Positions 12,100-37,020 of a stretch of 64,000 nucleotides of DNA are shown here, piece after piece (positions within the stretch are counted from its first letter, which is position 1; every line of letters begins with the position of its first letter). The position numbers and the translations under genes are program-made. Source of the DNA: Bacteroidota bacterium (GTDB lineage Bacteria > Bacteroidota > Bacteroidia > B-17B0 > Aurantibacillaceae); assembly GCA_018267475.1 (NCBI GenBank), contig JAFDYI010000022.1:62001-126000 (forward strand), given 5' to 3'. Below the pieces are notes generated by a model. The model saw nothing but the letters and a program-made list of their open reading frames with translations. It ran no database searches and was not told where the DNA came from.

Positions 12100-15000
12100 T
12101 TATTTAATAAGAGTTAAATAACCTTGATAGTTATGGGTTTGACCCTTCGTATCTGTTGCTTTTATGACATAAAAATAGGTTCCGTCGTTTTGTTTTCCTC
12201 CGTCCCACATATCCGAAGCGGCATTGGTTTGCCACAGCAATAAGCCCCAACGATCGTAAATAAGAATGCTCATACTGCTTACTCCCGTGCTTTTTACGAA
12301 GAAATTATCGTTTATACCATCACCATTGGGCGTAAACACGTTAGGAATAGAGATCGAGAAGCCATCGCTTACCACAATGGTGGCTGAGGTGCTGGCAGTA
12401 CACATGTTAGCGTTAGAAGCCATTAGCGTAACGGTATAAGTGCCTGACACAGAGTAGTTTGATTGAGAGCTGGTTGTATTTACAACCTGAGTGCTTCCAT
12501 TGCCGTAGTTCCATGTATAGCTGGTAGCACCCATGCTGGTATTGGTAAAGTTTACAGTAAGCGGGGCAATACCGGTTTGGGGATCGGCGCTAAAGGAAGC
12601 GCTGATAGAAGCCGTAGATACCGGCACTACAGCTGCCTTGCTGCACCCTAAAGCATTGGTTCCTATTACGGTATAATTAGTGCTGCTGGTAGGCATGCCG
12701 TATGGGGTGGCTGTGTTAGCGCCTGTCAGCCCTGCTGCGGGCAACCACGTATAATTAGTGGCTCCGGTAGCAGATAAATGTACGGTATCTCCTGCGCATA
12801 CTGTTTGGCTGCCGGAAGTACTGATATTAGGACTTGGATTTACCACCAAAGTTACGGTATTGCTATTCACACAGCCATTGGCATCGGTTCCGCTTACGGT
12901 ATAGGTAACCGATATCGTAGAGCTTGGGCTTACGGTTACAGGCGTTCCATTGCCGGAACTTAGCCCAGTATTGGGTGTCCAGGTGTAAGTAGCAGCGCCG
13001 TTGGCAGTAAGGGTGGCCGTGCTGCCCACGCAAACCGAGTTGGTATTGGCTGAAACAGTAGGCAGATTATTAACGGTTATACTGGTAGTGACAGTGCCGT
13101 AGCAACCATTAGCATCTACTCCTAAAACGCTGTAAGTACTTACTCCCACAACAGTTGGTGTAACAACAACGCTTGCGCCCGAAGAACCGGTGCCACCGGA
13201 AGAAGCCCAAGTGTAACTGGTAGCTCCTGTGGCTGTTAAAGTACCTGAATTTCCTATACAAATGCTGATAGGATTAGAAGTAATAACGGGTATAGCATTT
13301 ACTTTTACGGTGGTAGTATCAATACCCATGCAGCCATTGGCTGCCGTAGCCAAAAGCGTGTAGGTAGTAGTGGTAGTAGCGTTAGAAACGACTGTAGCTC
13401 CAGTACTACTACTTAAACTTGATGAAGGAGTCCAAGTATAAGTATTTGCACCATTGGCAGTAAGAGTTGCGGTTTGTTGTCCACTACAAATAGGACTTGT
13501 ATTGCTTACGGTTAAAGTAGGCAAGCTGTTTACCGTTATTTTTACAGAATCAATAGCACTGCAAGAGCTGTTAGATCCTCCCACATAATAAGTTTGAGTA
13601 ACAGTAGGGGTAACCATGGTAGTAGCGGTAGTAGCTACAAGAGTTGGTCCACTGGTTATCCAAGTATAAGTAGTAGCTCCGCTAGCAAACAATGTAACCA
13701 TGCTTCCGGAGCAAACGGTGGTGTCGTTTTTTACTGTAAGTGTAGGGGTTGATGCCACTGTTACGGTTGATGTGGCTGCTGCCGTACACGATCCAACGGT
13801 TCCTGTTACAGTATATTGGGTGCTTGCACTTGGGTTTACCGTTAAAGTAGAAGCGGTAGATCCTCCCGGTGCCCACACATAAGTACTAGCCCCGTTTGCG
13901 GTAAGAGTGGCGGTGCCGTTTGAACAAATAGTAGCGTTATTTACCGTTACCGTCGGACTTGCGTTTACAGTAACCGTTACCGTAGCAGGGCTTGCGCTGC
14001 AAGAGCCGGCCATACCTGTAACGGTATAAATAGTAGTGGCAGAGGGGCTGGCTTTTACTATGCTTCCGCTGGTAGAACTTAACCCGGTAGCAGATGCCCA
14101 AGTATAAGTGCTGGCTCCGCTTGCCGTTAAAGTAGCACTATCTCCGGCACAAATGGTGGCACTGCTTATAGATATAGCCGGACTGGAAGTGATGCTTACT
14201 GTTGCTACGGCTGTGTTGGTGCAGCCAGTAGCGCTGCTTCCGCTTACGGTGTATGACGTTGTACCTCCCGGGCTAACCGTTAACGGATTGGCTGTAGAGC
14301 CTCCCGGTGCCCAAGTGTAGGTACTGGCCCCTCCTGCGGTGAGGGTAGCGGTGCCGCCCGAACACATAGTAACGTTATTTACCGTTACAGTAGGAACAGG
14401 GTTTACTGTTAAAGTAAGAGTTAAAGGACTACTAGGCGCACAGCCACTTGCTGAACCCGATACGGTATAGGTAGTAGAGCTGCTTGCATTAGAGGTAGGA
14501 GTGGCGGTGTTGGCTCCCGTTAAAGAACCGGCCGGTGTCCAGGTATAGGTGCTGGCCCCGCTGGCTGAAAAGGTTTGAGTAGCTCCATTACATATAGTGT
14601 AAGAAGTTGCGGCTAAACTTAAACTGGGGGCAGGACTTACACTTACCGTTGCTACAGCCGAACTGGTGCAGCCTGCGGAACTTCCGGTTACCGTGTATGA
14701 TGTTGTGCCACCCGGGCTAACCGTTAACGGATTGGCGGTAGAGCCTCCCGGCGCCCAAGTGTAGGTGCTAGCACCATTAGCGCTAAGGGTAGCGGTGCCA
14801 CCTGAGCATATTGTGGCGTTATTTACCGTTACCGTTGGGTTGGGGTTTACGGTTATAGAGGTAGTAGCTGTATTTATACAACCGCCTTTTGTTCCGGTAA
14901 TGGTGTAAGTAGCCGTGTTGGTACCACTAAATACTACGTTGGTACCGGTAGTAGTGCTAAGCCCTGTAGCCGGCGACCAACTATAAGAACTGGCGGTGCC

Positions 15001-15951
15001 TCCGGCAGTTGCAGCTACCGTACCTCCCACACAAACGGAAGGAGAGGTGGCTGTAACCGTAATATTAGGGCCAATGGTAAATACAAAAGTGTTAGAAACA
15101 GGCGCACAACCCGATGAGGGGGGCGGCGTGAATACATAAGTAACCGTATAAGTACCTGCCGGTAAGGCACGCGTTTGTACAGCAGCATAGCCATTGTTAA
15201 AGTTAAAAAGAGCTGGGCTTGCCCAAGAAGGACTAATGCTATAACTGGCAGTACCTATATTGGTTCCTGCTGCTAAAGTCATAGTAAAACAAGAAGCTGT
15301 AGTAGCATTGCTTAGAGTATTTGGACCTGCTAAAGTGGCGCCGGTCCAACAATCTTGTAAAGAAACAGAGGTGGTAGTAATACTACCTGCGCCTGTTTTA
15401 CAAAACGTAAAACTATGCGAAAGTGTCGGATTAAATCCTGAAAGCCCAAATGTCCACCCCATAAGTCCCGAAAAAGGAGGTATAGGTCCTCCTATAGGAT
15501 AGGCACAGCCAGTAGAGGGAGGGGGGCTTAAACAAAAAACATTAGTGCCTCCTTCAAAAAAAGTCTGAGTAATATTGTTTCTAATGTTGGTATAATAAGT
15601 AGCATAACTTGTGTTTATACAAGGTACGTTTTCGTTAGCAGTAGTTGTACCTATAGGGTACAAATAGACAGGTTGATTATTACAAGTTAGCGTAGCTCCA
15701 TTTGCAATAGTCGTAGTAGTGTTATTTACAAAATTTGTAGAGTCTTGCATATTCAAAACAGCGGAAGTAGGGCAAGTAGTAGCCATTGTTCTGCTTGCTT
15801 GATTTATTGCTTCGGTTTTTTTTTCGAGCGCTTGAAATTTTAAGGGGGCATACAATTGCTTTTGCGCCACTATTGAAAAAACTGACGAGAGAAATGCGAT
15901 AAAAAAAACGCTTTTGCACGCATTTTTACTTAAAAATAATTTTGATTTCAT
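12100..15951 (-). CDS. Large Ig/PKD-repeat T9SS type B secreted protein
   Basis: A 1283-residue surface or secreted protein. A signal peptide (about 1-30, ending FSIVAQ) is followed by an N-terminal region of about 260 residues with paired Cys and no known family. Eleven Ig-like repeats of about 70-75 residues come next; each carries a Cys near its start, a core like STYTWAPGGS and an end like YTVTGS. After a PKD domain (SYTWNYGNGS) there is a CHU_C type B T9SS domain (VFTPNGDGINDNFF, YDRWGLL, DGTYFYVIKA). Proteins of this plan act as adhesins or structural surface proteins. Some repeats are nearly identical in DNA, suggesting recent duplication. It has its own -7 box (15977-15984) and terminator. 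Confidence 0.93.
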   Translation of the reverse strand: MKSKLFLSKNACKSVFFIAFLSSVFSIVAQKQLYAPLKFQALEKKTEAINQASRTMATTCPTSAVLNMQDSTNFVNNTTTTIANGATLTCNNQPVYLYPIGTTTANENVPCINTSYATYYTNIRNNITQTFFEGGTNVFCLSPPPSTGCAYPIGGPIPPFSGLMGWTFGLSGFNPTLSHSFTFCKTGAGSITTTSVSLQDCWTGATLAGPNTLSNATTASCFTMTLAAGTNIGTASYSISPSWASPALFNFNNGYAAVQTRALPAGTYTVTYVFTPPPSSGCAPVSNTFVFTIGPNITVTATSPSVCVGGTVAATAGGTASSYSWSPATGLSTTTGTNVVFSGTNTATYTITGTKGGCINTATTSITVNPNPTVTVNNATICSGGTATLSANGASTYTWAPGGSTANPLTVSPGGTTSYTVTGSSAGCTSSAVATVSVSPAPSLSLAATSYTICNGATQTFSASGASTYTWTPAGSLTGANTATPTSNASSSTTYTVSGSASGCAPSSPLTLTLTVNPVPTVTVNNVTMCSGGTATLTAGGASTYTWAPGGSTANPLTVSPGGTTSYTVSGSSATGCTNTAVATVSITSSPAISISSATICAGDSATLTASGASTYTWASATGLSSTSGSIVKASPSATTIYTVTGMAGSCSASPATVTVTVNASPTVTVNNATICSNGTATLTANGASTYVWAPGGSTASTLTVNPSASTQYTVTGTVGSCTAAATSTVTVASTPTLTVKNDTTVCSGSMVTLFASGATTYTWITSGPTLVATTATTMVTPTVTQTYYVGGSNSSCSAIDSVKITVNSLPTLTVSNTSPICSGQQTATLTANGANTYTWTPSSSLSSSTGATVVSNATTTTTYTLLATAANGCMGIDTTTVKVNAIPVITSNPISICIGNSGTLTATGATSYTWASSGGTGSSGASVVVTPTVVGVSTYSVLGVDANGCYGTVTTSITVNNLPTVSANTNSVCVGSTATLTANGAATYTWTPNTGLSSGNGTPVTVSPSSTISVTYTVSGTDANGCVNSNTVTLVVNPSPNISTSGSQTVCAGDTVHLSATGATNYTWLPAAGLTGANTATPYGMPTSSTNYTVIGTNALGCSKAAVVPVSTASISASFSADPQTGIAPLTVNFTNTSMGATSYTWNYGNGSTQVVNTTSSQSNYSVSGTYTVTLMASNANMCTASTSATIVVSDGFSISIPNVFTPNGDGINDNFFVKSTGVSSMSILIYDRWGLLLWQTNAASDMWDGGKQNDGTYFYVIKATDTKGQTHNYQGYLTLIK
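12630..15070 (-). repeat. Array of eleven Ig-like coding repeats
   Basis: Repeats of about 220 bp within the T9SS gene. The best preserved DNA pair is 14250-14326 and 14694-14770, offset by exactly 444 bp (two repeat units), with only scattered differences over about 77 bases. The others have diverged, so copying seems to involve pairs of units. Confidence 0.75.
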
Positions 15952-16982: not shown

Positions 16983-18119
16983 ATGATCAAAAAATTATTT
17001 ACAATCGGATTGGCTCTTGCTGCTGTTGGCGCAAGCGCTCAGCAAGTAAGTCTGAAAACCAGAACACTTACAAAAACAACTACGGTACAAATGGACGCTT
17101 CAAACAGATGGGGGCAACCAGCTTCTACGTACTCAGTAACCATTGATACTTTAAGCCCGGCTTCTGTTCTTACAGGAGGTTGCTCGGCAAGTTATAGTAA
17201 TATAGCTAATTACCAAGCTTATTCAACAGCTGATTCAGGGCGTGCCTTTGGTGCTGCTATTCCTCAAACTTTTACTGCTACTTTGTCGGGTGCTACTCAT
17301 ACTGTAGTAGCTAGTACCGTAATGTTAGCTCAAAAATACAGCGTAGGTTCTGCGGCCGCTACGGTTACCGATGTATTAGCTTTAGCTGGTACAGGACATG
17401 GAACCGCTACTACTACTACAGCTAAAATTTTTGCTCTTAACGCCGGTACAGGCAGCCCTGCTGCTTCTCCTCTTGGTACAAGTGCTGCGGTGCCTATGAG
17501 CGTTTATCAAACTGCTGCTATGGGAGCTTCTGTACACTCAAGATTGGTAGGTTACCACTTTGCTACTCCGGTTTCATTAGCTGCTAACGCAATGTTTTTT
17601 GCTGCGGTATCGGTTCCAGCTTTTGGTACTACCGATATGGACAGCATGAGCGTGCTAACAACTGCAGGTGGTTGCTCAGCTAATGCGGCTGATTCATTAG
17701 CATGGATGCAAACCAGCTACGCTATATCAGGTGTTCCGGCTCCTCAAATTCAATGGGCTTCTGTAAAACGTCTTTTTGGCGCTGCCAATGCTCTTGACAT
17801 TATGTTATTCCCTGTGATAGACATTACTACTTTAGGTATTAACGATTATGTAAAATTAGGTGCTTTAAGCCTTTACGCTGCTTACCCAAACCCTGCTAAC
17901 AGCGCTATCAACATCAATTTCTCGGTAGAAAATGCTTCGGCTGTTGAAATACAAGTGTATGATATTACCGGTAAAATTGTAAAAACGATTAACGATAACG
18001 CCGTATCAGGTAAAAACTTGATCGCCGTTGATGTTACTTCACTTAACGCCGGTTCTTACATGTACTCTATCAATGCTGGCGGTGCTAAAATGTTCAGCAA
18101 ATTTGTAGTGATAAAATAA
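16983..18119 (+). CDS. Ala/Thr-rich T9SS type A sorting-domain protein
   Basis: A 378-residue exported protein. The signal peptide covers residues 1-20 (LALAAVGASAQ). A middle domain of about 270 residues is rich in Ala, Thr and Ser and has no recognisable family. The C-terminal type A sorting domain (about 298-378) has YAAYPNPANSAININF, VYDITGKIVKTI, LNAGSYMYSI and a final KMFSKFVVIK. The strong consensus promoter, its own terminator at 18141-18168 and regular codon use suggest a well-expressed, monocistronic surface protein. Function unknown. Confidence 0.88.
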   Translation: MIKKLFTIGLALAAVGASAQQVSLKTRTLTKTTTVQMDASNRWGQPASTYSVTIDTLSPASVLTGGCSASYSNIANYQAYSTADSGRAFGAAIPQTFTATLSGATHTVVASTVMLAQKYSVGSAAATVTDVLALAGTGHGTATTTTAKIFALNAGTGSPAASPLGTSAAVPMSVYQTAAMGASVHSRLVGYHFATPVSLAANAMFFAAVSVPAFGTTDMDSMSVLTTAGGCSANAADSLAWMQTSYAISGVPAPQIQWASVKRLFGAANALDIMLFPVIDITTLGINDYVKLGALSLYAAYPNPANSAININFSVENASAVEIQVYDITGKIVKTINDNAVSGKNLIAVDVTSLNAGSYMYSINAGGAKMFSKFVVIK

Positions 18120-19760: not shown

Positions 19761-20477
19761 TTAGGCTAAAAGCTCTTTTAAAATTTGTATCGATTTTACT
19801 TCGCCAAAATTAGGAAGGTGTAATTTATACAAGAGTAATAATAAATTTAGCAAGTTACTTCTTACTTCGCTCGTACAGTGAAAATCTGTTTTTTTGCTTA
19901 ACAATTGGTTCAAATAAAAAGCGTCATTGCTATCGGCATAATGCAGATGTTGCGCAGGCAATGTAGCTGTAAAAATACCCTCTTGCACATCAAATAAAGT
20001 ATTTTTTTCGTTGTAATTATTATGGGGATAAAAACCCAAATGCCAAGCCATTTCTATTAAAAAATGTAAATGAAAGTGGGCGGTATCTGCGTGAGAACTA
20101 TCGAGGAGGAGGAGTTGCTGGGTGATAAAAAAAAATAATTCTTTATGCTCGGGTTGTTCGCGCAAGGATTTTATTAGTATTTCGTTTAAAAAAACAGCTA
20201 ATGTGTTTTTTACCGGATTGTTGTGCAACGACTGATACACATGCAACACCTGAATATTGCTAATACTTTGCAGGCTGCGCGTGTTTTTTACGTTTTCTGT
20301 AAATTCAATTTGATTGAGCGGTAATACGTGCGCTGCTTTTATTTTTGATGCAGCCGAATGTCCTACATGCACGATATAACTTTGCATACCACGTTGTAGG
20401 GTATATATTTTCAAGATGTTTTTTTTTTCTTGAAACCGAGTGCTTTGCAAAATAATACCTTGATTTTTTTGCTGCAT
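19761..20477 (-). CDS. recO: DNA repair protein RecO
   Basis: A 238-residue recombination mediator of the RecFOR pathway, which loads RecA on gapped single-stranded DNA. The N-terminal OB-fold (about 1-78: GIILQSTRFQEKKNILKIYT) and the all-helical C-terminal domain are recognisable; no zinc-finger cysteine cluster is seen, as is usual in Bacteroidota. Its ATG begins one base after the stop codon of the T9SS propeller gene, so it is the last gene of the minus-strand operon that starts with the Pls-like synthetase. Confidence 0.93.
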   Translation of the reverse strand: MQQKNQGIILQSTRFQEKKNILKIYTLQRGMQSYIVHVGHSAASKIKAAHVLPLNQIEFTENVKNTRSLQSISNIQVLHVYQSLHNNPVKNTLAVFLNEILIKSLREQPEHKELFFFITQQLLLLDSSHADTAHFHLHFLIEMAWHLGFYPHNNYNEKNTLFDVQEGIFTATLPAQHLHYADSNDAFYLNQLLSKKTDFHCTSEVRSNLLNLLLLLYKLHLPNFGEVKSIQILKELLA

Positions 20478-20478
20478 C

Positions 20479-22866
20479 TTAGTTCATTACCATTATTTTG
20501 GTAATTTGTTTTTGAGAGCCGTCGGGCAGGGCGCAAATAGCCATATAAATACCGGATTTTACTCGTTGTCCTTTTTCGTTTTGAGCGTACCAAACTGCTT
20601 GCCCGCCTTGTGAGGTAGTTTCATATACAAAGTTCCCGCCCTCATCTACTATCTTTACGGTAGCGCCGGCCATCATGCCGTGTATCAATATAGGGCCCGC
20701 GTAGTTGGGCTTTACCGGGTTGGGGTACGCATATACATTTTCAAAGCTGGTGTTGCCCTCTTGTATTATATTTTGAAACGATTGTATGCCCTTATCCGTA
20801 CTAATAAATACTTCGCCCGTTTTTCCGTTTACGTGCACATCAACAATGTTATTAGAAAAGAGCGGACTGTTTTGTGTGGTAAAATGATAGATTTGGGTTT
20901 GCCCATCGGGCGAAAAATAAAACAAACCATTGCCGGTGGTGCCTACCCACTTGTAATTGCCTCCATCAACAAAAATAGAAGTAACGGCGCTGGTTTGCAG
21001 CAACAATTGGGTTTGCCCATTTTGAGTAACGTATATGGGTTGAGCGTCCCAGCCGCTGGCTTGAGTTAAAATGCTGGTAGGGTTATAAAAAACATAAATA
21101 CCTTGGTCGGTGCCTGCCCACATATTGTTGTTTTTATCCATCGCTAAACTGATAATGTTGTTGGTAGGCAAGCCCCCTTTGCCGGCTATATTTACTAGGT
21201 TTATCGAATTACTGGTGTTGGGTTGCGAGTAGTTGTTGTCTTTTTGGTATAAAACAATTCCATTTCCAAAAGTGGCTAACCATACCATGTTGTTGGAGTC
21301 CACAACCAATTGATTTACATTTAACGAGTTGGTAGAGCCCAAGAGATTGGAAAAGTTTAAGTTCGTCCATGTTCCGTCGTTTTTTTTCACGGTAATACAT
21401 TGGGGGGTAGCGTCGCAGCCAATCCATAAGTTGTTGTTGTAGTCAGAGCAGAGCGCGGTTACTTGTGTCCACGTATCTCCCGGAAAGTTGCGGTAAGGTA
21501 TGGCGCTGTTTCCTCCATTGTATTGGCTTATTAAACTATCGTTTTTCATTTCAAGCAAGCCACCATTAAAAGAACCTGCGTAGTAATGCGTATCGTCGTT
21601 ATTATCAAAGGCAGTGCAAATAACATCGTACATCAGGTTGCTAGAAGTAGCGTGGTTGTTTACGGTTTTCCAGGTTCCGTTATTAAAAGAATAAGCTCCG
21701 GTTTGCGACCAGGTATTGTATTTGTTTTGATAACCCAAATAGTTGGATCCGGCTATTACATGGTTGTTTTGTATTTGCATTTTTGCAGAAAGCACTCCGG
21801 TGGGGCCATTTATTTGGTATTGCAGCGGTTTATCGGTGGTGGTGTTTTTAAAAGATAAAAGGCCATACACTTTATCGGCTTGCCAGTACCAACCGGCACT
21901 GGTAGGGTCGGGCATCATATCCATTGGGAAAGTCCACCAGCTATTAGCCGGAAAGCCATATTGCGCCGCTATGAGGTTGGCACCTGAGGTATTGTATGCT
22001 TTAAAACCCATATTATCTATAAACATAAATTGAGTATTATCGTCGGATACTTTTATTTTTTTTATAAAATCGGGAGCAATGCCAAAAGGAAATTTAGTCC
22101 ATGCGCCGGTGCTGTTATTTTTCATATAGAGGGTATCTATATTGGTATTGCTTGGGGGTGGGTTGGGGCTGTAATTTCCCGAATAACAGGCTATAATGCT
22201 GTTATTAAAATTGACTACACCGGTGTAGCTAACATTAGTAGTAGGCAGGTTGCTTACTGCTGCCCAGTTGGTAAAACTGGCAAGATTAGAGGCGTTTATA
22301 GAGGCTTTTAGCAATCCTGTTGCCGTAGCGGCATAAATACTATCGGCTGAAAAAGCTACTTGATATACATTGGTATAAGAGCCGGCGGCTCCAATAATAT
22401 AGGTGTCTTGAAATTGTAAGGCATCGGTATTAAATACGGCTATGCCAAAAGCGCAAGCCAGGTAGGCGTTAGCCCCTTTAAAGGTAATTTCATTTACGTT
22501 TTTGTTGTTTATTCCTTGTTTGTTAAGTAGGTCTGGTATGTTGGTGATGGTTCCGTTTTTTAGCACATCTATATTCCCATTTTTATATACAATCAGGAGT
22601 GCGTTGTTGTAGGGATTGTTGCGCACCAATATAGGCTCTATATCGCTTAGTCCGTTTGTTTTATTTAACCTAGAGAGTGCATTATCTGCCTTGTTGTATG
22701 AAAAAACACATTCGTTGGCGGCTGCATAAATAGTATTGCCTTGGTAACTTATAGAAAAGGTTTGGTCATAAGGCAAATGATCGCGCCATTGAAAAGATTT
22801 TAGCGCATTTTGTCCGTATAAATGAACTCCCAAGTACAGCGTAAAAAAGCAGATAAGTTTCCTCAT
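20479..22866 (-). CDS. T9SS type A protein with two-component-regulator-type propeller repeats
   Basis: A 795-residue exported protein. The ATG at 22866 gives a proper signal peptide (MRKLICFFTLYLGVHLYGQ); an ATG at 22908 would add 14 unlikely residues. The body is built of beta-propeller repeats of the kind found in hybrid sensor periplasmic domains (DNNDDTHYYAG, NNLWIGCD, NMVWLATFGNGI, NNMWAGTDQGIYVF, NYKWVGTTGNGLFYF). The tail is a T9SS type A signal (VYAYPNPVKPNYAGPILIHG, VKSGIYMAICALPDG). In relatives annotated as PorZ-like, this propeller-plus-sorting-domain plan belongs to a T9SS attachment-complex component. PorZ is therefore a reasonable guess, supported by similar length, but not proven. 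Confidence 0.85.
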   Translation of the reverse strand: MRKLICFFTLYLGVHLYGQNALKSFQWRDHLPYDQTFSISYQGNTIYAAANECVFSYNKADNALSRLNKTNGLSDIEPILVRNNPYNNALLIVYKNGNIDVLKNGTITNIPDLLNKQGINNKNVNEITFKGANAYLACAFGIAVFNTDALQFQDTYIIGAAGSYTNVYQVAFSADSIYAATATGLLKASINASNLASFTNWAAVSNLPTTNVSYTGVVNFNNSIIACYSGNYSPNPPPSNTNIDTLYMKNNSTGAWTKFPFGIAPDFIKKIKVSDDNTQFMFIDNMGFKAYNTSGANLIAAQYGFPANSWWTFPMDMMPDPTSAGWYWQADKVYGLLSFKNTTTDKPLQYQINGPTGVLSAKMQIQNNHVIAGSNYLGYQNKYNTWSQTGAYSFNNGTWKTVNNHATSSNLMYDVICTAFDNNDDTHYYAGSFNGGLLEMKNDSLISQYNGGNSAIPYRNFPGDTWTQVTALCSDYNNNLWIGCDATPQCITVKKNDGTWTNLNFSNLLGSTNSLNVNQLVVDSNNMVWLATFGNGIVLYQKDNNYSQPNTSNSINLVNIAGKGGLPTNNIISLAMDKNNNMWAGTDQGIYVFYNPTSILTQASGWDAQPIYVTQNGQTQLLLQTSAVTSIFVDGGNYKWVGTTGNGLFYFSPDGQTQIYHFTTQNSPLFSNNIVDVHVNGKTGEVFISTDKGIQSFQNIIQEGNTSFENVYAYPNPVKPNYAGPILIHGMMAGATVKIVDEGGNFVYETTSQGGQAVWYAQNEKGQRVKSGIYMAICALPDGSQKQITKIMVMN

Positions 22867-22912
22867 AATATGTGCAAACGAAAGTACGCCTTTTTTAGTA
22901 TAAAACAAAAAA

Positions 22913-23818
22913 CTAATAGGTGCTTAATGCCTTTTTAGCTTTTTTTAGCAAGTCTTTTTTATCGCGATAAAAAGTGTAAGAAACACTAAAGCCGTAGTAA
23001 AAAAAAGGTTTTAAGGATTCGCCCGTTTGGTTGAAAGGAATGTTGTAATACACCCCGGCGCTTACATCGCAGTTGGCAAACGATGCTTTTATAGGCAGGT
23101 ACAATTCGTAATCAATAAGGCGGAACTTATTATTGTTTTGAGGCACTATGGGGGCTGTGTTGTAGATAGGCAAAAAATTACTGTTGGCGCCTATTAAGGT
23201 CATTTCGGGAATAATATACGTGCGTATTTTTTTAAACAAGGTGCCTATGTAAAATTCTTGACTTAATTCTAAATCGGTTTCAAATATATTGACCGTACCA
23301 AACATATAAAACTCGGATAGTTCTACATTAAACCATTCCAGTTCGGCAGCGGCGCGCGCCTCTAATGAGTTTTGAATGGCTTTTTTTACAAAGCTGCTTC
23401 CGTTGTAATAAATCCAGCGTTCGTAGCTTACGCCGGTGCTAAAAATATCGTTCCATTGTTTGTCATACCCTACCCCTATATCCGATTTGGCAATGGCATT
23501 AGGCGTAGCGTCTTTGCTCCAGTAGTAATTGGTATTGTATAAATAAAATCCTTTACCGCTAGATAACACGATAGAAGGAATAAGAGTGTATTGGTTAAGG
23601 CCAAACGTTCTGCCCCAAAAAATGGCTTTATTGGCTCCGTCCATACTAAGCTCTAAGGAGGGTAGTATATCTTTTATAGAATCTATACGGCTTAAAAGAG
23701 AGTCGTTTTCTCTGAAGAAAAAACTTTTTTTTCGGTTCATGTCGGGGGTTCCTCTTTGAGCACAGAGAGGTAAGCAGGTATATAGTAAGCACAACCAAAA
23801 AAAAGCACGTTTGCTCAT
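22913..23818 (-). CDS. Exported protein, probably an outer-membrane beta-barrel
   Basis: A 301-residue protein with a signal peptide (residues 1-20, CLLYTCLPLCAQ). After a polar linker it consists of alternating hydrophobic/aromatic strands (IPSIVLSSGKGFYLYNTNYYW, GVSYERWIYYN, PFFYYGFSVSYTFYR), typical of outer-membrane barrels. No named family is recognised. It sits 4 bases after the Pls-like synthetase gene and 46 bases before the propeller gene, so the three are probably co-transcribed. Export or surface display of the synthetase product is a possible role, but this rests on position alone. Confidence 0.75.
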   Translation of the reverse strand: MSKRAFFWLCLLYTCLPLCAQRGTPDMNRKKSFFFRENDSLLSRIDSIKDILPSLELSMDGANKAIFWGRTFGLNQYTLIPSIVLSSGKGFYLYNTNYYWSKDATPNAIAKSDIGVGYDKQWNDIFSTGVSYERWIYYNGSSFVKKAIQNSLEARAAAELEWFNVELSEFYMFGTVNIFETDLELSQEFYIGTLFKKIRTYIIPEMTLIGANSNFLPIYNTAPIVPQNNNKFRLIDYELYLPIKASFANCDVSAGVYYNIPFNQTGESLKPFFYYGFSVSYTFYRDKKDLLKKAKKALSTY

Positions 23819-23822
23819 GTTT

Positions 23823-26800
23823 TTATTTTGTGTGAATTTTTACCGGGCTGCCCCACCATTTTTTATTTCCGGATAAAGTTTCTCCTTTCATTACCAACGA
23901 AAGTGGATATAGCTCGGTATCGTTTTCTATTTTGCTGCTGTACAACACAATGCTTCTGGCGCCAATGCTGCATCGGTCGCCTATATGCACGGGACCTATT
24001 TTCATAACCCTATCTTCAAACAAATGGGTTTGTGGGCCGCAATCGGTATTAAAAACCACATCATCGCCTATGCGCACCATATCGTACTCGGTAATATCGG
24101 TGGTAAGCATACAAGCACGTTTTCCAATTTTAGCTCCTAAAAATCGTAAAAACACCGGCAGCCAAAGGGTGCCCTCCATAAATTCTAAAAAATAAGGCAC
24201 TGCCAGCGACTCGTACGTGGTGGTAATGGCTTCGCTTTTCCAAACAGCCAAGGTCCACATGGGCAATTGTTTTTCTTTGTAAATACCTACTAAAAGCCAT
24301 TTGGCTAATGCCGTACACAAAAAGGAAGGAAAGCCTACTAAAGCAATATAATAAAGAGGCAACATAACAAGTACATAAAAAAACGAATGTTCTACAATAA
24401 GTTGGTGGCCAAAGGTAATAAATAACATACTGAATAAAGTGATAACCGACAGGGGAATAATAACCCTTGCAAACTCTACCATGCCACGTGCCCATTTGCG
24501 CACTAGGGGAGGGTTTATGGTAAGCTGCTCCGGAAAAGAATTAGACTCTTGTCGGCGAGGCAAACCGATAGGAGGGGAGCCTACCCATGTTCTAAAACCA
24601 CTGGCCTCTACTTCCTCCGGTGAAGGAGGAGTAGATAGCACTCCAATCAATAAGTTGCTGTCTATTTTCAAGCCTTGCGGAATTACAGCGGCATTGCCCA
24701 AAAAGGTCATATTGCCTATTTCGGTTGGTTTTAGAGTCAGCATCAGGTCGCGCACATCGGCTTCTCCTAAACTTACGGCATCAGCTACAAAGCCTCCTTC
24801 GCCTATAGAAAGAAGCTCGTGTGTGGCCTCTCCTGCTGTTGAAATTTCTGTTTTTTTACCCACCTTAGCGCCAAATGCCCTAAAAATAGGAGCAATAAAT
24901 ATAGTAGCATAAATAGGGTGCAGCACGTTTAAGGATATGTTCATCATTTGGTCGTTGAGCCATTTAGCTAAATAGGTAGTACTGTATATGCTGTAAGAAC
25001 CTGTTTTTATTTTACTACGAAAAATTTTAGAACTGATGATTGTTTGCAAAAGAAATACCAACACATAGCTTAAAGCAAAAATAGGAGTAAACCACAGGTA
25101 TGAGAAATTAATCCCATCTAAATCGTAGTGCATCTCGTTCATGGTAATGATGGTAGGAAGTAAGGGGGTAATAAATACTAAGGGAAGAGTAAACAATAAG
25201 AGAGAAAAAATAAAAGCGTATTTTATTTTTGTTTTTTTTGCTACCCTTGGAATATGAGCCTCTGTGCGTGCTTCTTTTTTCTTTACAAAAGCAGCAGGGC
25301 TTCCTTTCCAGAATTCATCTTTTGGGATAGCCACAGCAGCAGGGATAAAACTTAAATCATTTAATTCGGCATTTTCTTCTATACGAGTGTTGCCACTAAT
25401 AACCGAGCTGTTGCCAATATAACAATGAGAACCTATATGTATGCTGCGAATTTTTAGATAATGATTTTCAATACAGGCATTGTCCAACAGCACGCCGGAA
25501 CCAATACTTACATTATCTCCTAAGGTTACTAAATCGGTAGCACCCACTATAAGCGAGCTTAACTGCGTGTTTTTCCCTATCTTCATGCCCATCATGCGTA
25601 GATATACCGGGTACAGAGGCGTATCAGCCAAAAATTGTACACTGTTTAGTTTTTGAAAATTTTGAACCAACCACCACCTAAAATAGTATAAGCCCCACAG
25701 CGGATAATCGCCTTCTTTTATTTTACCCAGCACTACCCACTTTACCAAAACGCTTATTAAATTAAACAAAGGCATTAAAAAACAAAAAGAAATAAAGGCT
25801 ACAATAATTCCGTATAAATGGTTGCGTGTATTTACAAACGCGTAACTGTAAGCCATAAAAGGCAGAAAAAATTGTATGGCAAATAAAAAATAGATAAACG
25901 GAAGTGTAATGGTTTGTGCTATAGAGCAAAGAGCGTGAGAAAAACGCGTGTAAGGAAGTGTTTTTTTAATTTCATTTTTTATTTCTATGGGTTCTTTTTT
26001 CTCGTTTTCCCAGTGAACAAGTAATTTTTCTAAAGGACGAATAGTATATACATCTTTAAAAGAAGCACTTTCTATCCCTACTTTATCCCTTACTGCCGAA
26101 ACAAATAAAGCGCAGGTAAAAGAGTCGCCTCCTATTTCATTAAAAAAATCGTCTGTGTTTTTTATGTTTTTATTAGGAAAAATGTTTTTTAGAATGGCGT
26201 ATATTTTATTTTTTGTTTCTTGTATGTGCTCGTAGCTTTCTTGATGCGTTTCTTCTTTTTGCGTATAGTTTTCGGGAATTAGCAATTGTTTTCGGTTTAT
26301 CTTTCCGCTGGGCAAACGAGGTATTTCTTGCACTTCTATAAAATCCTGCGGAAGCATATAAGGAGGCAAGGCTTGCGCCAACTCTTGTCGTAATAAATTT
26401 TTATTTAAAGGTATGTGGTTATACATACATACAAAGGCAGCCAACCAATCTTTTTTTGTTTCTTCTTTTATCAACTTTACGGCGGCTTCTTTTACTCCAC
26501 TAATGCTTAGCAAGCGCGACTCTATATCACCCAACTCAATACGATACCCGTGTAGTTTTATTTGGTCGTCTATGCGCCCTAAAAACTCAATGTTTTTTTC
26601 GCTGCTTATTTTTACCAAATCTCCTGTACGGTAAATACAGGTTCCGTATAATGTTTGTAAGGATGCTGGTTTTTTTAAAAATTTTTGAGCATTTAATTCC
26701 GGTCTTTTAATATACCCTTTTGATACGCCTATGCCGCTAATAATTAGTTCGCCTTCTTGCCCTATGGGCAGGGCTTGCAGGTTTTCATCTACCACCGCTA

Positions 26801-27815
26801 TACTGTAATTGGGCAGTAGAGTACCTATGGTTATAGCGCTTCCTTTTGTTAGAGAAGCCATGCTGGCAGAAACCGTAGTTTCAGTAGGGCCGTAGCTGTT
26901 GATGAATTTACGTTTGCGCTGAGTCCATTTTTGTAGTGCCAAGGGAGTGCAGGTTTCGCCCCCTGCATTTACAATACGTACCGTAGTGGCATCGCGTGGC
27001 ATGGCCGATAGCAGGCTGGGTACGGCGTGTAGCACGGTGATGTTGTTTTTTTCTAACACCGAAGGTAAATCGTTGATGGATTTGGCTGTTACTACATCAG
27101 CCACCCAAAGGGTAGCGCCTACTAAATAGCTAATCCAGGTTTCTTCGCACCACATATCAAACGAAACGGAAAAACCTTGATATACGTTATCGTTTGCTTC
27201 TATCCCAAGTACGCTTTGCTCCGCCCGTATTAAATGACAAATTTGCTGGTGCGTAATTGGTATTCCTTTAGGCTTTCCGGTACTGCCCGATGTGTATATA
27301 ACATAGGCTGTATCGCCGGGGTTTACTTTAGGCAAAGCGACGCTATTTGTGTTTTCTTTTACATGGATGTGTACCTGTATTTTATGCAGATGAATAGCTA
27401 AATCTTTATCTGTAAAACAAGCCTTTGCTTCAACTTCGTTTAGCACTTCGTGCACACGCTCAAAGGGAGTATCATAATCTAAAGGAACGTAGGCGGCACC
27501 TGCTTTTACTACGGCTAAAACAGCGACATGTAATTCGATGCCACGAGACAAGTAAACGCCTACAAAATCGCCGGCTTTAATACCCAAACGAACTAAATGC
27601 GCTGCGTAGTAATCGCTTAAAAAATCCAACTCGGAGTAGGTACTTATTTTATCATTAAAAATAAGAGCCGCTTTTTGAGGGTATGCTTGAACGGTGTTTT
27701 TAAAAACGGCGACTAGGCTTTCTTGTTTTATTAGCTCGTCTCGCTTTTCTCCGTATAAAATACTTAATGCACTTGTTTCAGTTACTGATACCTCATTTTC
27801 TTTTTTTTGCAGCAT
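23823..27815 (-). CDS. Pls/PosA-like nonribosomal peptide synthetase (adenylation, carrier, membrane LbH modules)
   Basis: A 1330-residue membrane enzyme. The adenylation domain (about 35-510) has core motifs YTSGSTGKPKG (174-184), SYGPTETT (307-314), YRTGDL (395-400), GRIDDQIKLHGYRIELGD (413-430) and LPSGKINRK (501-509). A carrier domain follows, with the pantetheine Ser565 in GGDS. The C-terminal half has membrane helices alternating with three left-handed beta-helix (hexapeptide) modules, e.g. MKIGKNTQ, AKVGKKTE and AKIGKRAC. No condensation or thioesterase domain is seen. This is the plan of Pls/PosA enzymes such as epsilon-poly-L-lysine synthetase, which join one amino acid into a homopolymer. 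Hand alignment to GrsA gives pocket residues D-M-E-H-V-A-S-V-S-K; the acidic third position fits a cationic amino acid. Confidence 0.87.
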   Translation of the reverse strand: MLQKKENEVSVTETSALSILYGEKRDELIKQESLVAVFKNTVQAYPQKAALIFNDKISTYSELDFLSDYYAAHLVRLGIKAGDFVGVYLSRGIELHVAVLAVVKAGAAYVPLDYDTPFERVHEVLNEVEAKACFTDKDLAIHLHKIQVHIHVKENTNSVALPKVNPGDTAYVIYTSGSTGKPKGIPITHQQICHLIRAEQSVLGIEANDNVYQGFSVSFDMWCEETWISYLVGATLWVADVVTAKSINDLPSVLEKNNITVLHAVPSLLSAMPRDATTVRIVNAGGETCTPLALQKWTQRKRKFINSYGPTETTVSASMASLTKGSAITIGTLLPNYSIAVVDENLQALPIGQEGELIISGIGVSKGYIKRPELNAQKFLKKPASLQTLYGTCIYRTGDLVKISSEKNIEFLGRIDDQIKLHGYRIELGDIESRLLSISGVKEAAVKLIKEETKKDWLAAFVCMYNHIPLNKNLLRQELAQALPPYMLPQDFIEVQEIPRLPSGKINRKQLLIPENYTQKEETHQESYEHIQETKNKIYAILKNIFPNKNIKNTDDFFNEIGGDSFTCALFVSAVRDKVGIESASFKDVYTIRPLEKLLVHWENEKKEPIEIKNEIKKTLPYTRFSHALCSIAQTITLPFIYFLFAIQFFLPFMAYSYAFVNTRNHLYGIIVAFISFCFLMPLFNLISVLVKWVVLGKIKEGDYPLWGLYYFRWWLVQNFQKLNSVQFLADTPLYPVYLRMMGMKIGKNTQLSSLIVGATDLVTLGDNVSIGSGVLLDNACIENHYLKIRSIHIGSHCYIGNSSVISGNTRIEENAELNDLSFIPAAVAIPKDEFWKGSPAAFVKKKEARTEAHIPRVAKKTKIKYAFIFSLLLFTLPLVFITPLLPTIITMNEMHYDLDGINFSYLWFTPIFALSYVLVFLLQTIISSKIFRSKIKTGSYSIYSTTYLAKWLNDQMMNISLNVLHPIYATIFIAPIFRAFGAKVGKKTEISTAGEATHELLSIGEGGFVADAVSLGEADVRDLMLTLKPTEIGNMTFLGNAAVIPQGLKIDSNLLIGVLSTPPSPEEVEASGFRTWVGSPPIGLPRRQESNSFPEQLTINPPLVRKWARGMVEFARVIIPLSVITLFSMLFITFGHQLIVEHSFFYVLVMLPLYYIALVGFPSFLCTALAKWLLVGIYKEKQLPMWTLAVWKSEAITTTYESLAVPYFLEFMEGTLWLPVFLRFLGAKIGKRACMLTTDITEYDMVRIGDDVVFNTDCGPQTHLFEDRVMKIGPVHIGDRCSIGARSIVLYSSKIENDTELYPLSLVMKGETLSGNKKWWGSPVKIHTK

Positions 27816-31053: not shown

Positions 31054-31994
31054 ATCCTTTGAAAAGAAAATTTATTTCGCATAAAAAAAACATAACCCAA
31101 CAAAGAAGGGAACACGATGTTGATAAACCACAACAAGGTAGAAGCGGTGCTCAGCTTCCAATCGTTGCTGCCTAAATGGCCAAACAACAAAGTTACCACA
31201 AAGGCGCGTATGGCCACCTCTACAAAACTTATCATGGGTATGGTGCTCAGCAATAAATAGGCTACTGTTATGGCGCCGCACACCTGCCACCAGCTGCCCT
31301 GTACGCCACAAGCAAGTAACAGCAGGTAAAACTGAAGGCTAAACACAAGGTATCTACACAAAGACAAACACAACAGTTTCATTATTTCTTTCTTTTTTAC
31401 ACGTAAATTTGAAAAATGATATTTTTTTAAAAAAGATTGGCGGCGTACCCAAGCTATAACCGTATTTATTTTTAATAAAATGAGACTTACCAACAACAGT
31501 AAAGTCAGTTCGCTGGTTAAAATAATAAAAAAAAGAGTTCCTTCAATGCCCGATGAATAGCTTACCAAGCCTGCACAGCCCATTACAACGGTAATGATAA
31601 GTTGTGCAAAGCTGCCTACAAAATGCAAGGTTCCGGCTTCGGCTCTGTGCTCCGGCTTAAAAAACAGCACCCTGCCGGCAAATTCGCCCAGGCGGGCAGG
31701 CGTAAGGTTGCCCATGCACACGCCTACCCATACGCTTTGCCATAGTTCCAGAAAAGTTTTTTTCTCTAAAGAGAGGGTGAGCCGCCTCCATTTTAATACC
31801 TCGATAGCCCAATTAAGAAACAATAAAATAAAGGCGGCGGCTACATACACTGCATTTTCGTGTTCAAAAATTTCTTGTACCGAATGTAGCTGTTGCACCG
31901 AATACGAAGCGTATAAGCGCTGCCCAATAAGAATTAGGCAAGCTACACCTATAAGAATTTTGAGCCCTCTTACTTTGTTGCTTTTTAGTTGCAT
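31050..31994 (-). CDS. Lysylphosphatidylglycerol synthase TM region / flippase-like (UPF0104) membrane protein
   Basis: A 314-residue integral membrane protein with about seven helices and the family marks GNLTPARLGEFAGRV (about 105-119) and a late Ser/Pro-rich helix (LLLSTIPMISFVEVAIRAF). Proteins of this group flip or handle lipids; only those with an extra cytosolic domain aminoacylate phosphatidylglycerol, and that domain is absent here. It starts at TAATG overlapping the stop of the GIY-YIG-helicase gene, so it may be translated from the same transcript as the restriction-modification-like island, although its own function is in the envelope. Confidence 0.87.
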   Translation of the reverse strand: MQLKSNKVRGLKILIGVACLILIGQRLYASYSVQQLHSVQEIFEHENAVYVAAAFILLFLNWAIEVLKWRRLTLSLEKKTFLELWQSVWVGVCMGNLTPARLGEFAGRVLFFKPEHRAEAGTLHFVGSFAQLIITVVMGCAGLVSYSSGIEGTLFFIILTSELTLLLLVSLILLKINTVIAWVRRQSFLKKYHFSNLRVKKKEIMKLLCLSLCRYLVFSLQFYLLLLACGVQGSWWQVCGAITVAYLLLSTIPMISFVEVAIRAFVVTLLFGHLGSNDWKLSTASTLLWFINIVFPSLLGYVFFMRNKFSFQRI

Positions 31995-34579
31995 TAAGGT
32001 GTTTTTGTTTTTTTAGGTTGTTTGCTTTTTGTAACAGTTCTTTTTTTTACATACATAGCTTTGTATTCTTTTTGCGTTAGGGTGGTATCCCACCCGCCCA
32101 CTTTTTTATTTGTACTGTGTTTGTTTAAACCCATGTACGTTAAGCTGGCATCTTCATAGCGTTTAAACTTATAAACGGCATCATTCATTAACGCAGCATT
32201 AAATACATTTAAGCTTACCAACAAGTTAAAGTCGGTTATTGCTAAGCCGGTTACTTTTTTAAAAAGGGCGGGTTCTATTTGTGTAATAATGTCTTTTAAA
32301 CTATTTTCTCTAAAGTCGGTGAGGTACATAAATACCGGAATACGAGTAGCAAATTTTATTAGCTTGCTCTGTATTTGCTTTCGTTTGCTTTGATATTCTT
32401 TTTCAATGTCCGACAATTTTTTCTTTTGAGGTAAGCCCCCTCCGTTGGATTGTCGCTTCGCTTTTTTTACGGCTTCAGATTTGCTGATGATGCTTTCAAT
32501 ATCTTGATTTAGGTTTCTAAACCCTTCTATCTTCATCAATGCTTCCATTGCTTTTTTATTTGCCATCAATCGGGCTAGTGTATCGTTATCTACATGTACC
32601 AGCAAGGCGCTTTCCCATCGTCGGGCTAATAGGGTTGCGGTTGTGCCGCTCATGGCTATATCTAAGATGCCTGCTGCATCTACTTGTTTCATAGAGCTGC
32701 CGTCGTAAGCAAGCACCGGAAGAAAGTGGATAAACTCGGCAACCTTTGCTTCGGGGTTGGTTTCATGAACATTGAGCCGGCAGCTGTAATCAGCAATTTG
32801 CCGCAAGGCTCTGTCGGGTGCAAAATCAAATACATAACATTCTTCTTTTAGTATTTCTTCCTTGTTAGGCGATTTGCCGTCTGGATTTTTAATAACCCAA
32901 GGTGTTTGCACTCGGAAGGCTGCCTGAAAATAGGTTTCCGGACTTGAAGAATTTCGGAGCATAAAAATACCCGTCCATGGTTTTACCGAAACGCCTGTGG
33001 TGAGTTTGCCGCAAGACAGGGTAATGGTTTTTGATTGCAGGGGTTCGTTCATTCCGTTTAGTACAGGTTCCAGTGCTTTTACTCCCATTCCTGCTTCTGT
33101 GCCGGCAGCAATAATTACTTTGTAATCGTGATAAAAGGAGTTGTTTTGTTTTTTCAACAGGTTTGCCATGGCATGGCATGAGGCCACCGAAGGCAAAAAC
33201 CAAAAAGTGTGATTCAACACACGAAGTAATGGGGTGTGAGAAAAGGGTAAGGGTGGTTTTTTTGCCCCCATTTTTAAAAGGTCAATGGTTGTTTCTTTAA
33301 AATCGCCACGTATTAGGTTTAGCCATTTTTGCACTTCGTCTTCGTATTTAAAATGAGCTTTCTTTCCCACCCCTTCAGCATAAAAAAACACATTCAAGTC
33401 AAACTCGTTAAACTCACCTTGCATGGCTATTTGCCTTATAGCATCAGGCAGTTGGTAGGTAAGCATAACCATTCTTGGCAAGCTTGCGTAAGGATTTGCC
33501 CCATCTTTTTTATCCCAGTTTTCTTTAGCCCCTTGTTCGTCGGAATAGGTCCAATTAAAAATCTGTTCTTCAATAAATTCTCCAGAGTTGATGGCTCTGA
33601 ATGGTGTTCCCGATAAATACAAAAAGTGATGCGCTTTAATGGACAAAAGATCTTCCAGCGTATTTATTTTTTTTTCGTCTGGAAATCCATCTTGTTCTAT
33701 TTTCTTAAAATCTTCAATCTCTTTTTCTGCTTCGCTGTCTTGCCCAAATAAATCTTTGGCGTTTTCGCGCCAAGCCCCAAAATGGTATTCGTCAAACACA
33801 ATACAATCCCATTCGGTTTGGTGCACCCATTTATTTTTTACTTTTATGCTTCCATCTTTTTGTGTGCCTAAATAATCTTGAAACGAACCAAAACACACTA
33901 AATTGGTTTTTGATAAATCGGTTTTCTTGGAAATATTTTCAGCTTCATTTTTTGAGAAGAATGTCCACCCTTTAAAATCGGTATGGGTGTTTAAATCTTC
34001 ACGCCAGGCATCTTCTACAGCAGGTTTAAACGTTAAAACCAACAGCTTTTTCCATTTCAATTGTTTGGCAAGCTGATAGGTGGTAAAGGTTTTGCCAAAA
34101 CGCATTTTGGCGTTCCACAAAAAGTGCGGTGTTTTATTTGGGTTTTCTTTTTTAAAACTCTTGAAGTAAGCAATGGTTTTGGTTACGGCTTCTTGTTGCT
34201 CAGGTCGCATACCAAAATTCAGCACACGGTTGTCTTCGCTGCGTTCACCTGTTTTAATTTCGTGAATAGCTTGGTGCAATTGCTTGAGGGTGCAAACAAA
34301 CCATTCGCCTTCCGGGTTTTTTATTTTGTTTTTACGCAACAAGGCGTGAACGGCTTTGTCGGTAAAGCTGCTGCCGTCTGCCCGCATGGCGCTTTCTTCC
34401 AACACAATGTTGAAAGTGGCACGGGTAGCACCAATTTGTTCTTTGATGCGCGTTTGCGCATCACGGTCGGTAAACCCAATTTTTATTTGCCCTTTGCGTT
34501 GGCTGTCGTTGGGTAGCTCATAAGCGTAAATGGTAGGATTAACGCTAGGACGTGGCGGAAAGAATTCTTTTTTACTCAT
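31994..34579 (-). CDS. GIY-YIG nuclease-DEAD/DEAH helicase fusion, restriction-type
   Basis: An 861-residue protein combining two enzyme modules. The N-terminal part (about 12-105) is a GIY-YIG/T5orf172-like nuclease domain: TIYAYELP and IKIGFTDR form the two strands, with an Arg in DAQTRIKEQ. The helicase (about 130-620) has the Walker A motif KMRFGKTFT, the DEAD-type box FDEYHFG, motif III LSGTPFRA, and a late motif FRVQTPW. The last 220 residues are helical, Lys-rich and unrecognised. Such fusions act as the motor-nuclease part of restriction-modification-like loci next to Eco57I-type methylases. Its first 8 bases overlap yhcG (AATGAGTAA). A 29-bp repeat across its start recurs at the start of yhcG. 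Confidence 0.88.
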   Translation of the reverse strand: MSKKEFFPPRPSVNPTIYAYELPNDSQRKGQIKIGFTDRDAQTRIKEQIGATRATFNIVLEESAMRADGSSFTDKAVHALLRKNKIKNPEGEWFVCTLKQLHQAIHEIKTGERSEDNRVLNFGMRPEQQEAVTKTIAYFKSFKKENPNKTPHFLWNAKMRFGKTFTTYQLAKQLKWKKLLVLTFKPAVEDAWREDLNTHTDFKGWTFFSKNEAENISKKTDLSKTNLVCFGSFQDYLGTQKDGSIKVKNKWVHQTEWDCIVFDEYHFGAWRENAKDLFGQDSEAEKEIEDFKKIEQDGFPDEKKINTLEDLLSIKAHHFLYLSGTPFRAINSGEFIEEQIFNWTYSDEQGAKENWDKKDGANPYASLPRMVMLTYQLPDAIRQIAMQGEFNEFDLNVFFYAEGVGKKAHFKYEDEVQKWLNLIRGDFKETTIDLLKMGAKKPPLPFSHTPLLRVLNHTFWFLPSVASCHAMANLLKKQNNSFYHDYKVIIAAGTEAGMGVKALEPVLNGMNEPLQSKTITLSCGKLTTGVSVKPWTGIFMLRNSSSPETYFQAAFRVQTPWVIKNPDGKSPNKEEILKEECYVFDFAPDRALRQIADYSCRLNVHETNPEAKVAEFIHFLPVLAYDGSSMKQVDAAGILDIAMSGTTATLLARRWESALLVHVDNDTLARLMANKKAMEALMKIEGFRNLNQDIESIISKSEAVKKAKRQSNGGGLPQKKKLSDIEKEYQSKRKQIQSKLIKFATRIPVFMYLTDFRENSLKDIITQIEPALFKKVTGLAITDFNLLVSLNVFNAALMNDAVYKFKRYEDASLTYMGLNKHSTNKKVGGWDTTLTQKEYKAMYVKKRTVTKSKQPKKTKTP

Positions 34580-34581
34580 TG
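34553..34581. repeat. 29-bp direct repeat, copy 1, over the helicase start codon
   Basis: Same sequence as 35586-35614 with one mismatch. It encodes MSKKEFFPP on the minus strand and contains AATGAGTAA, which serves as both start and stop for the overlapping genes. Confidence 0.85.
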
Positions 34582-35612
34582 GCAGTAGTTTTATTTCGGG
34601 CTATTTCTATTGCTTGATGTAGCTTTTGTTCTAATAATTTTAAGCTGGGGAGCTTGGTTAAGTATTCCGCCACCTTAATATTGCTGTTTTCTAATTGCAA
34701 CAACTCCACGTGTTCTTGATTTTTAGTGGCACATAAAATCAAACCAATTGGAGGATTTTCTCCATCTACAACTTCGTGTTTTTCTAACCACCTTAAATAC
34801 AATTCCATTTGCCCTTTATAGGCTGCTTCAAACTTGCCCAATTTTAGTTCAATAGCCACTAAGCATTTCAAGCGTCTATGATAGAAAAGCAAATCCAAAT
34901 AATAATCGTCATAATCAATGCTTATTCGTTTTTGCCTTGCCATAAACGCAAAATCAGAGCCCAATTCGATAATAAATTTTTGGAGTTCCACCAAAATACT
35001 TTCTTCTAAATCCTTTTCGGAATAAGTATCTTTTAGACCTAAAAAATCAAGAAAATAAGGATCTTTAAAAACTAAATCAGGCGAAATTCGTTGCTCATTT
35101 TTAAGCAATTCCAAATCGTTTTGAATGGTGAGTTCCGGCTTTTTACTTATGGCAGTACGTTCGTAAAGCATGGAGTTGATACGTTCTTGTAAAACTCGTG
35201 TACTCCACCGCTCTAGTTTGCACATTTCAATGTAGAATGTTCTTTTCAATGGCTCATCTATGTAGATAATAGATCGAAGATGAGTCCAGCTCAATTCTCT
35301 ACTCACTGCGTAGAGAATTTCCTTATCCTGAATTGTCTCCGCAATGCGGAGACAATGTCTTAGATGCTTTTCGCCCCATCCTTTGCCATATTCTGAAACC
35401 AACTGTGTACTTAAAGTTTGCACAATTTGTTTTCCATAATCTGCTCGCCCACGCAATAAAATCTCCTCATTTATACGCTTGCCTATTTGCCAATATAACA
35501 TGGTGATAGTCGAGTTTACCGCCACAGCCACTTGCTCACGACTTTGGGCTATTAACTGTTTAATATCAATAGCTAAATGCTTTTCTGGCGGAAAAAATTC
35601 TTTTTTACTCAT
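34572..35612 (-). CDS. YhcG/DUF1016 family PD-(D/E)XK nuclease
   Basis: A 346-residue protein of the YhcG family. The N-terminal DUF1016 domain (about 15-160) has IGKRINEEIL, HLRHCLRIAETI, LSWTHLRSIIYID and the Trp/Arg-rich ERWSTRVLQERINSMLYERTA. The C-terminal nuclease domain (about 180-335) shows the PD-(D/E)XK pattern, with Asp in YYLDLLFYH and ELK in VAIELKLG. The family occurs in restriction loci and defence islands and is thought to bind or cut DNA. It overlaps both neighbours by 8 bases. Residues 86-94 and 98-107 are encoded by two near-perfect palindromes. Direct repeats bound the gene. Confidence 0.92.
   Translation of the reverse strand: MSKKEFFPPEKHLAIDIKQLIAQSREQVAVAVNSTITMLYWQIGKRINEEILLRGRADYGKQIVQTLSTQLVSEYGKGWGEKHLRHCLRIAETIQDKEILYAVSRELSWTHLRSIIYIDEPLKRTFYIEMCKLERWSTRVLQERINSMLYERTAISKKPELTIQNDLELLKNEQRISPDLVFKDPYFLDFLGLKDTYSEKDLEESILVELQKFIIELGSDFAFMARQKRISIDYDDYYLDLLFYHRRLKCLVAIELKLGKFEAAYKGQMELYLRWLEKHEVVDGENPPIGLILCATKNQEHVELLQLENSNIKVAEYLTKLPSLKLLEQKLHQAIEIARNKTTANE
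35293..35319. repeat. 27-bp intragenic palindrome in yhcG, first (12 of 13 pairs)
   Basis: Arms AATTCTCTAC and GTAGAGAATT pair perfectly around a 7-base centre. Counting the inner pairs, 12 of 13 match about the central C at 35306. It encodes residues 98-107 (EILYAVSREL). Confidence 0.85.
35332..35356. repeat. 25-bp perfect intragenic palindrome in yhcG, second
   Basis: ATTGTCTCCGCA and TGCGGAGACAAT, 12 perfect pairs around the single A at 35344. It encodes residues 86-94 (HCLRIAETI). It lies 12 bases from the first palindrome. Confidence 0.9.
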
Positions 35613-35614
35613 TG
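35586..35614. repeat. 29-bp direct repeat, copy 2, over the yhcG start codon
   Basis: One mismatch to 34553-34581. The unit between the copies is 1033 bp and holds the yhcG gene from its own start to the shared junction. Confidence 0.85.
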
Positions 35615-36940: not shown

Positions 36941-36974
36941 TATAGGTATTTCATTTTTTGTGTTCATTTAAACG

Positions 36975-36989
36975 GTTCCAAAATGGAAC
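36975..36989. promoter_or_regulatory. Perfect 15-bp palindrome upstream of the truncated RhuM gene
   Basis: GTTCCA-AAA-TGGAAC. It lies 8 bases before the upstream candidate start at 36967, a place where an operator or autoregulatory site is often found. GAACTGGTTC overlaps its right arm. No promoter box fits next to it. Confidence 0.4.
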
Positions 36990-37020
36990 TGGTTCATTTT
37001 CTGGTTTTTCTTCTTTCACT

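Follow-up and report, generated by a model that had tools for sequence, protein, structure and literature searches.

A Pls/PosA-family synthetase gene with an adjoining outer-membrane barrel gene in Bacteroidota: a putative synthesis-and-export pair for a cationic polymer

The window (the whole 64,000-nucleotide stretch of DNA analysed here) carries a gene for a Pls/PosA-family synthetase (pls) directly followed by a gene for a predicted outer-membrane barrel (omp), and we consider it likely that the two form a synthetase and exporter pair for a cationic polymer of the ornithine kind, for which we infer the substrate, the polymer, the membrane face and the export. Taken as a whole, the locus is probably best explained as this two-gene unit sitting ahead of a vertically inherited porZ–recO pair. 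The minus-strand open reading frames bear out the four-gene layout of the first-pass annotation, including the 4 bases between the synthetase gene and the 301-aa gene:

27815–23823, minus strand: Pls/PosA-family cationic homopoly-amino-acid synthetase, 1330 aa; adenylation, carrier and C-terminal membrane polymerisation domain, predicted ornithine-type pocket
23818–22913, minus strand: barrel gene (omp), 301 aa; predicted 12-strand outer-membrane β-barrel with predicted acidic lumen, proposed polymer exporter
22867–22912, minus strand: gap between the barrel gene and the probable porZ start; promoter-like block common to genus-mates
22908–20479 as the listed ORF, 22866–20479 as the probable extent, minus strand: porZ (type IX secretion system, T9SS, component; NF052228), apparently an incidental neighbour
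20477–19761, minus strand: recO (TIGR00613), conserved partner of porZ

Synthetase architecture and substrate pocket

The synthetase adds a member to the known Pls/PosA family. Residues 633–1325 match TIGR02353 (Pls/PosA family non-ribosomal peptide synthetase) at 613.6 bits against a cut-off of 423.1, which upholds the initial identification of a Pls/PosA-like homopolymer synthetase, and the closest other synthetase found is at most 52% identical to it. Profile searches place an amino-acid adenylation domain at residues 59–446, and NRPS models run across the carrier to residue 617; the Pfam carrier model gave no match at E 0.001, and the carrier residues G562, G563 and S565, together with K505, are invariant in an alignment of seven synthetases. 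The C-terminal 719 residues are predicted to form a three-fold repeat, each unit comprising a transmembrane helix pair and a left-handed β-helix (pLDDT 87, pTM 0.89), so that the model contains the three helix pairs and three left-handed β-helices expected of a Pls/PosA member; a fold search with this domain returned no whole-domain match in the structure collection searched, and partial left-handed β-helix matches (best E 3.5e-4). Pfam matches in the synthetase are restricted to AMP-binding, AMP-binding_C and hexapeptide-type families, and the same scan found no condensation or thioesterase domain, as expected for this family. The domain plan read from the DNA at the outset (adenylation, carrier and three membrane-linked LbH modules, with no condensation or thioesterase domain) thus agrees with the profile matches, the invariant carrier residues, the C-terminal model and the Pfam scan.

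The epsilon-poly-L-lysine synthetase Pls of Streptomyces (7wew A domain) shares the three-part plan and the TIGR02353 C-terminal domain. It differs in its lysine-type pocket, with Ala at position 2 according to the covered sections of the PosA paper (PMC10522769) where the window's enzyme has Met, and in its Gram-positive hosts, for which exit through an outer membrane is not needed. PosA of Acinetobacter baumannii, as described in those sections, resembles the window's enzyme in family, in domain order and in a C-terminal domain of six helices and three LbH modules; in the window the synthetase gene is followed by an outer-membrane barrel gene, whereas the sections covered name none (PMC10522769). 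For the window's enzyme a polymer product is predicted.

The pocket residues D220, M221, E224, H263, V282, A284, S307, V315, S316 and K505 give the code DMEHVASVSK, reproducing the earlier reading by hand. In the sections of the PosA paper covered (PMC10522769), the code of this δ-poly-L-ornithine synthetase is DMEHNGTVSK, with D, M, E, T and S contacting the substrate; 7/10 positions are identical in the window, where D, M, E and S are retained and Thr is replaced by Ser. The Asp and Glu required at code positions 1 and 3 (PMC10522769, same sections) are present as D220 and E224. Those sections further describe position 2 as a chain-length gate, occupied by Met in PosA, by Ala in lysine enzymes and by Phe in diaminopropionate enzymes. 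The near-match to PosA supports the cationic-substrate pocket proposed in the first-pass annotation, and from the code we infer that the substrate would be L-ornithine or a close diamino acid. It seems rather unlikely that the product is instead built from a different amino acid (lysine, diaminobutyrate), or that it is a short oligomer serving as a conjugate. That alternative could draw on code positions 5 and 6, which are V and A in the window and N and G in PosA, and on the report that PosA itself binds lysine, less well; against it, the same paper describes a preference for ornithine rather than lysine as set by the Met gate, and reports no substrate contact in PosA for positions 4, 5 and 8 (PMC10522769).

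Among the 87 Bacteroidota Pls relatives collected (with flanks of at most 7 kb, shorter at contig ends), 85 have DME-type codes, and the Ala-type code DAESL[LF]TVIK, as in lysine enzymes, is found in the other two (loci L042 and L047). The family gains a branch within the Bacteroidota whose members are likely to produce poly-ornithine.

By analogy with the family biochemistry in the covered sections of the PosA paper (PMC10522769), from which the adenylation, carrier-loading and polymerisation steps are taken, the synthetase would convert L-ornithine, or a closely related diamino acid, into an AMP ester and pass the residue to its own phosphopantetheine carrier, and the membrane-embedded three-fold C-terminal domain would link residues via side-chain amines to yield a polycation of the δ-poly-L-ornithine kind. 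The acidic-lumen 301-aa barrel would then release this polymer from the periplasm across the outer membrane. The window's genome has a single phosphopantetheinyl transferase (PPTase) gene, the sole match, on another contig (C35), and four arginase-superfamily genes, which could supply ornithine. Across the collection, a PPTase gene lies beside or near pls, often divergently, at 26/87 loci (e.g., L044 5498–6118; L042 5851–6537).

The barrel gene as a partner of pls

The outer-membrane protein annotated directly behind the synthetase finds support in a predicted barrel and in homologues directly 3′ of pls at seven other loci. The AlphaFold model of the 301-aa protein is an outer-membrane barrel (pLDDT 74.5; residues 15–48 of low confidence), which in comparison with the PDB resembles KdgM (Z 17.5), VhGalP (16.6), FapF (16.5, over 202 residues), a COG4313 channel (16.2) and NanC (15.6). 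KdgM, VhGalP and NanC are oligomer porins, and FapF is a polypeptide (amyloid) exporter of a type built as a 12-strand barrel with a helical plug. The modelled likeness to the KdgM and NanC porins and to FapF is that of 12-strand single-chain outer-membrane barrels (Z 15.6–17.5); the difference is that the window's barrel matches no Pfam or NCBIfam family and is 8–12% identical to these proteins. One relative of the barrel weakly resembles Gcw_chp, with a score under the cut-off. The barrel fold by itself reveals no function.

A barrel homologue lies directly 3′ of pls, on the same strand and with a gap of 0–30 bp, at eight loci (the window, L076, L101, L109, L110, L118, L124 and L125), and at L042 the barrel gene is the second after pls, with a PPTase gene between them. 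Further pls–barrel cases were found in what appears to be one Flavobacteriaceae genus (L182, L183, L184 and L186); these perhaps overlap the earlier loci, some being the same strains, and the L182 protein is the same as the L110 protein. The barrel family as a whole is present in 33/392 genomes of the phylum, mostly away from Pls, with identity across the family of about 20%. In the family tree the Pls-linked members fall into two well-separated clades, one comprising the window, L076 and L042, and the other Flavobacterium plus Spirosoma/Arcicella types. The barrel trees force at least two changes between linked and unlinked labels in one tree and three in another, the third arising because L185, which is unlinked, nests within the second clade. 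The pls–barrel link arose at least twice separately.

The window's barrel clade accompanies ornithine-type synthetases (the window and L076) as well as a lysine-type one (L042). At L042 (1397–7363) the operon consists of a lysine-type Pls gene (DAESLLTVIK), a PPTase gene and the barrel gene; its genome, G029, is a distant member of the window's family, and the operon lies on its own contig, away from the porZ of that genome.

The barrel is not obligatory and partner genes vary, because most Bacteroidota Pls loci are without an adjoining barrel and 20/87 have a GNAT acetyltransferase gene directly after pls (e.g., L046 8933–9415; L122 10885–11451). The GNAT arrangement, which never coincides with a barrel, occurs in Chitinophaga, Chryseobacterium, Taibaiella and others, and the acetyltransferase may act on the polymer or on its monomer, or shield the producing cell. 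Four unlinked barrel genes from several genomes (L158, L160, L161 and L162) immediately precede a gene pair for a response regulator and a histidine kinase, which suggests that away from pls the barrel acts as a regulated porin.

Lumen charge and proposed polymer export

For lumen charge, inward and outward strand positions were assigned by residue alternation on the window's predicted model and applied to the whole barrel set, with the choice of inward face based solely on the unlinked rows and made without the charged residues. The predicted inward-face net charge averages −9.7 in 13 Pls-linked barrels versus −3.9 in 26 unlinked ones, the corresponding outward-face values being +1.3 and +1.0; whole-protein charge separates linked from unlinked barrels weakly, the effect being on the predicted inward face. 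The window's barrel has a predicted inward net charge of −11, and the unlinked sister group of its clade 0 to +2; in the second clade, linked L184 has −11 versus −5 for its unlinked sister L185. Some unlinked barrel groups are fairly acidic as well (−7 to −9). Permutation of the inward-charge difference ignores kinship; once kinship is counted there are only three independent contrasts, mostly in the expected direction, which are too few to reach significance. The charges predicted in this way are suggestive of a more acidic lumen in Pls-linked barrels than in their unlinked relatives. KdgM and NanC have a basic-lined lumen. These porins carry anionic oligomers, whereas the lumen of the window's barrel is predicted to be acidic.

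If the synthetase, which is membrane-bound, makes a polycation, this product must pass the lipopolysaccharide-coated outer membrane, and the linked channel is a small candidate for this step: the barrel is proposed as exporter because the polymer needs a route through the outer membrane and because the barrel is both linked to pls and, as modelled, acidic. KdgM and NanC, which its model resembles, are channels for uptake, and members of the wider barrel family are also found without Pls; on these grounds the barrel might serve as a pore for protection or uptake, or be a structural protein of the outer membrane to which the polycation binds, with the gene pair itself unchanged. We regard such roles as improbable, given that the recurrent position directly 3′ of both ornithine-type and lysine-type synthetase genes fits handling of the product, as an exporter would. 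Whether Bacteroidota have repeatedly paired Pls/PosA enzymes with a dedicated acidic-lumen channel, as a route of non-ribosomal polycation synthesis and export in which one barrel clade serves both substrate types, is to our mind an evenly balanced proposition. We found no report of an outer-membrane partner or of such a pair in the literature searched on export, NAPAA clusters and Bacteroidota, and the sections covered of the PosA paper do not address pairing with an outer-membrane channel or passage of the polycation across the outer membrane (PMC10522769). Cultured Spirosoma and Flavobacterium relatives make the polymer-export idea directly testable.

The porZ–recO pair and its surroundings

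In profile searches the third gene matches PorZ (NF052228) at 551.4 bits (cut-off 260), making it a member alongside the PorZ of T9SS (PMC8545088), and the fourth matches RecO (TIGR00613) at 53.4 bits (cut-off 48.7). The description of a PorZ-like protein followed by recO was therefore correct, whereas the listed porZ start is probably too early: both the profile match and the signal peptide start only at Met15 of that ORF, which places the probable start of porZ at 22866 and leaves about 46 bp between it and the barrel gene. The window's porZ differs from a member of the synthetase unit in belonging to a conserved porZ–recO pair; recO lies directly after porZ in 28/30 PorZ loci examined in the window's family (its whole order in the genome collection used), nearly all of them without Pls.

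The idea raised at the outset, that the enzyme makes a surface anchor or modifies exported proteins or lipids, amounts to a role in the T9SS, in which the polymer or an adduct of it would anchor or modify the cargo that PorZ/PorU process. This proposal has on its side the same strand and close spacing of synthetase gene and porZ in the window, and a genome with a T9SS (SprA at 2291 bits) and T9SS cargo genes; since the T9SS is present in the window's genome, shared presence of Pls would be expected without a functional link. Pls is found in 2/87 family genomes versus PorZ in 61/65 near-complete family genomes, and no porZ was found within the flanks (≤7 kb) at the 86 other Bacteroidota Pls loci. 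When seven Pls-bearing Bacteroidota genomes were tested, six had PorZ above the cut-off, away from pls except in the window, and the seventh (G347) had none above the cut-off. Nor is the synthetase confined to T9SS genomes, an outcome named at the outset as one that would refute the T9SS idea: TIGR02353 has a match in Corynebacterium glutamicum (control) and PosA comes from Acinetobacter (PMC10522769, sections covered), both outside T9SS bacteria. Co-occurrence and linkage are thus not those of a T9SS accessory, and with porZ also retaining its own upstream block we consider a role of the synthetase in the T9SS very improbable.

This upstream block, within the roughly 45 bp before porZ, reads TTTTATACTAA...TTTCGTTT (also given as TTTTATACTAA...CGTTT) and is common to both genus-mates (loci L048 and L031); its conservation would fit a porZ that has retained a promoter of its own. 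Scans for sigma-70-type promoters and terminators gave matches no more frequent than in shuffles, and in the window the bare TANNTTTG motif occurs about as often as expected by chance, so that the promoter argument rests on genus-mate conservation. In the genus-mates G061 and G065, and also in G002, G050 and G051, tRNA-Arg(CCG) precedes porZ; in the window, pls and the barrel gene occupy this place. The tRNA-Arg(CCG) gene of the window's genome lies on another contig, beside genes without a match in the genus-mate loci, and for this reason insertion at the tRNA gene and rearrangement both fit. The GC content of the 23–28 kb segment (0.35–0.43) is similar to that of its surroundings and gives no sign either way of recent foreign origin.

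A functional T9SS link of the synthetase was rejected on the rarity of Pls, the Pls-free porZ–recO loci, the genus-mate layout and the non-T9SS hosts, which removes a misleading hypothesis; porZ looks like an accidental neighbour of the pls–omp unit. T9SS cargo genes are present elsewhere in the window, at 12100–15951, 16983–18119 and 39824–44608, and encode two large Ig-like proteins that carry CHU_C sorting domains, and a third protein that has a Por_Secre_tail. The window also contains a restriction-modification island (31994–39733) with a T5orf172-helicase protein and an Eco57I-type methylase that together look like a split type IIG system; YhcG/DUF1016 (PDC-S02) and RhuM-Fic (PDC-S23) genes lie between the two.
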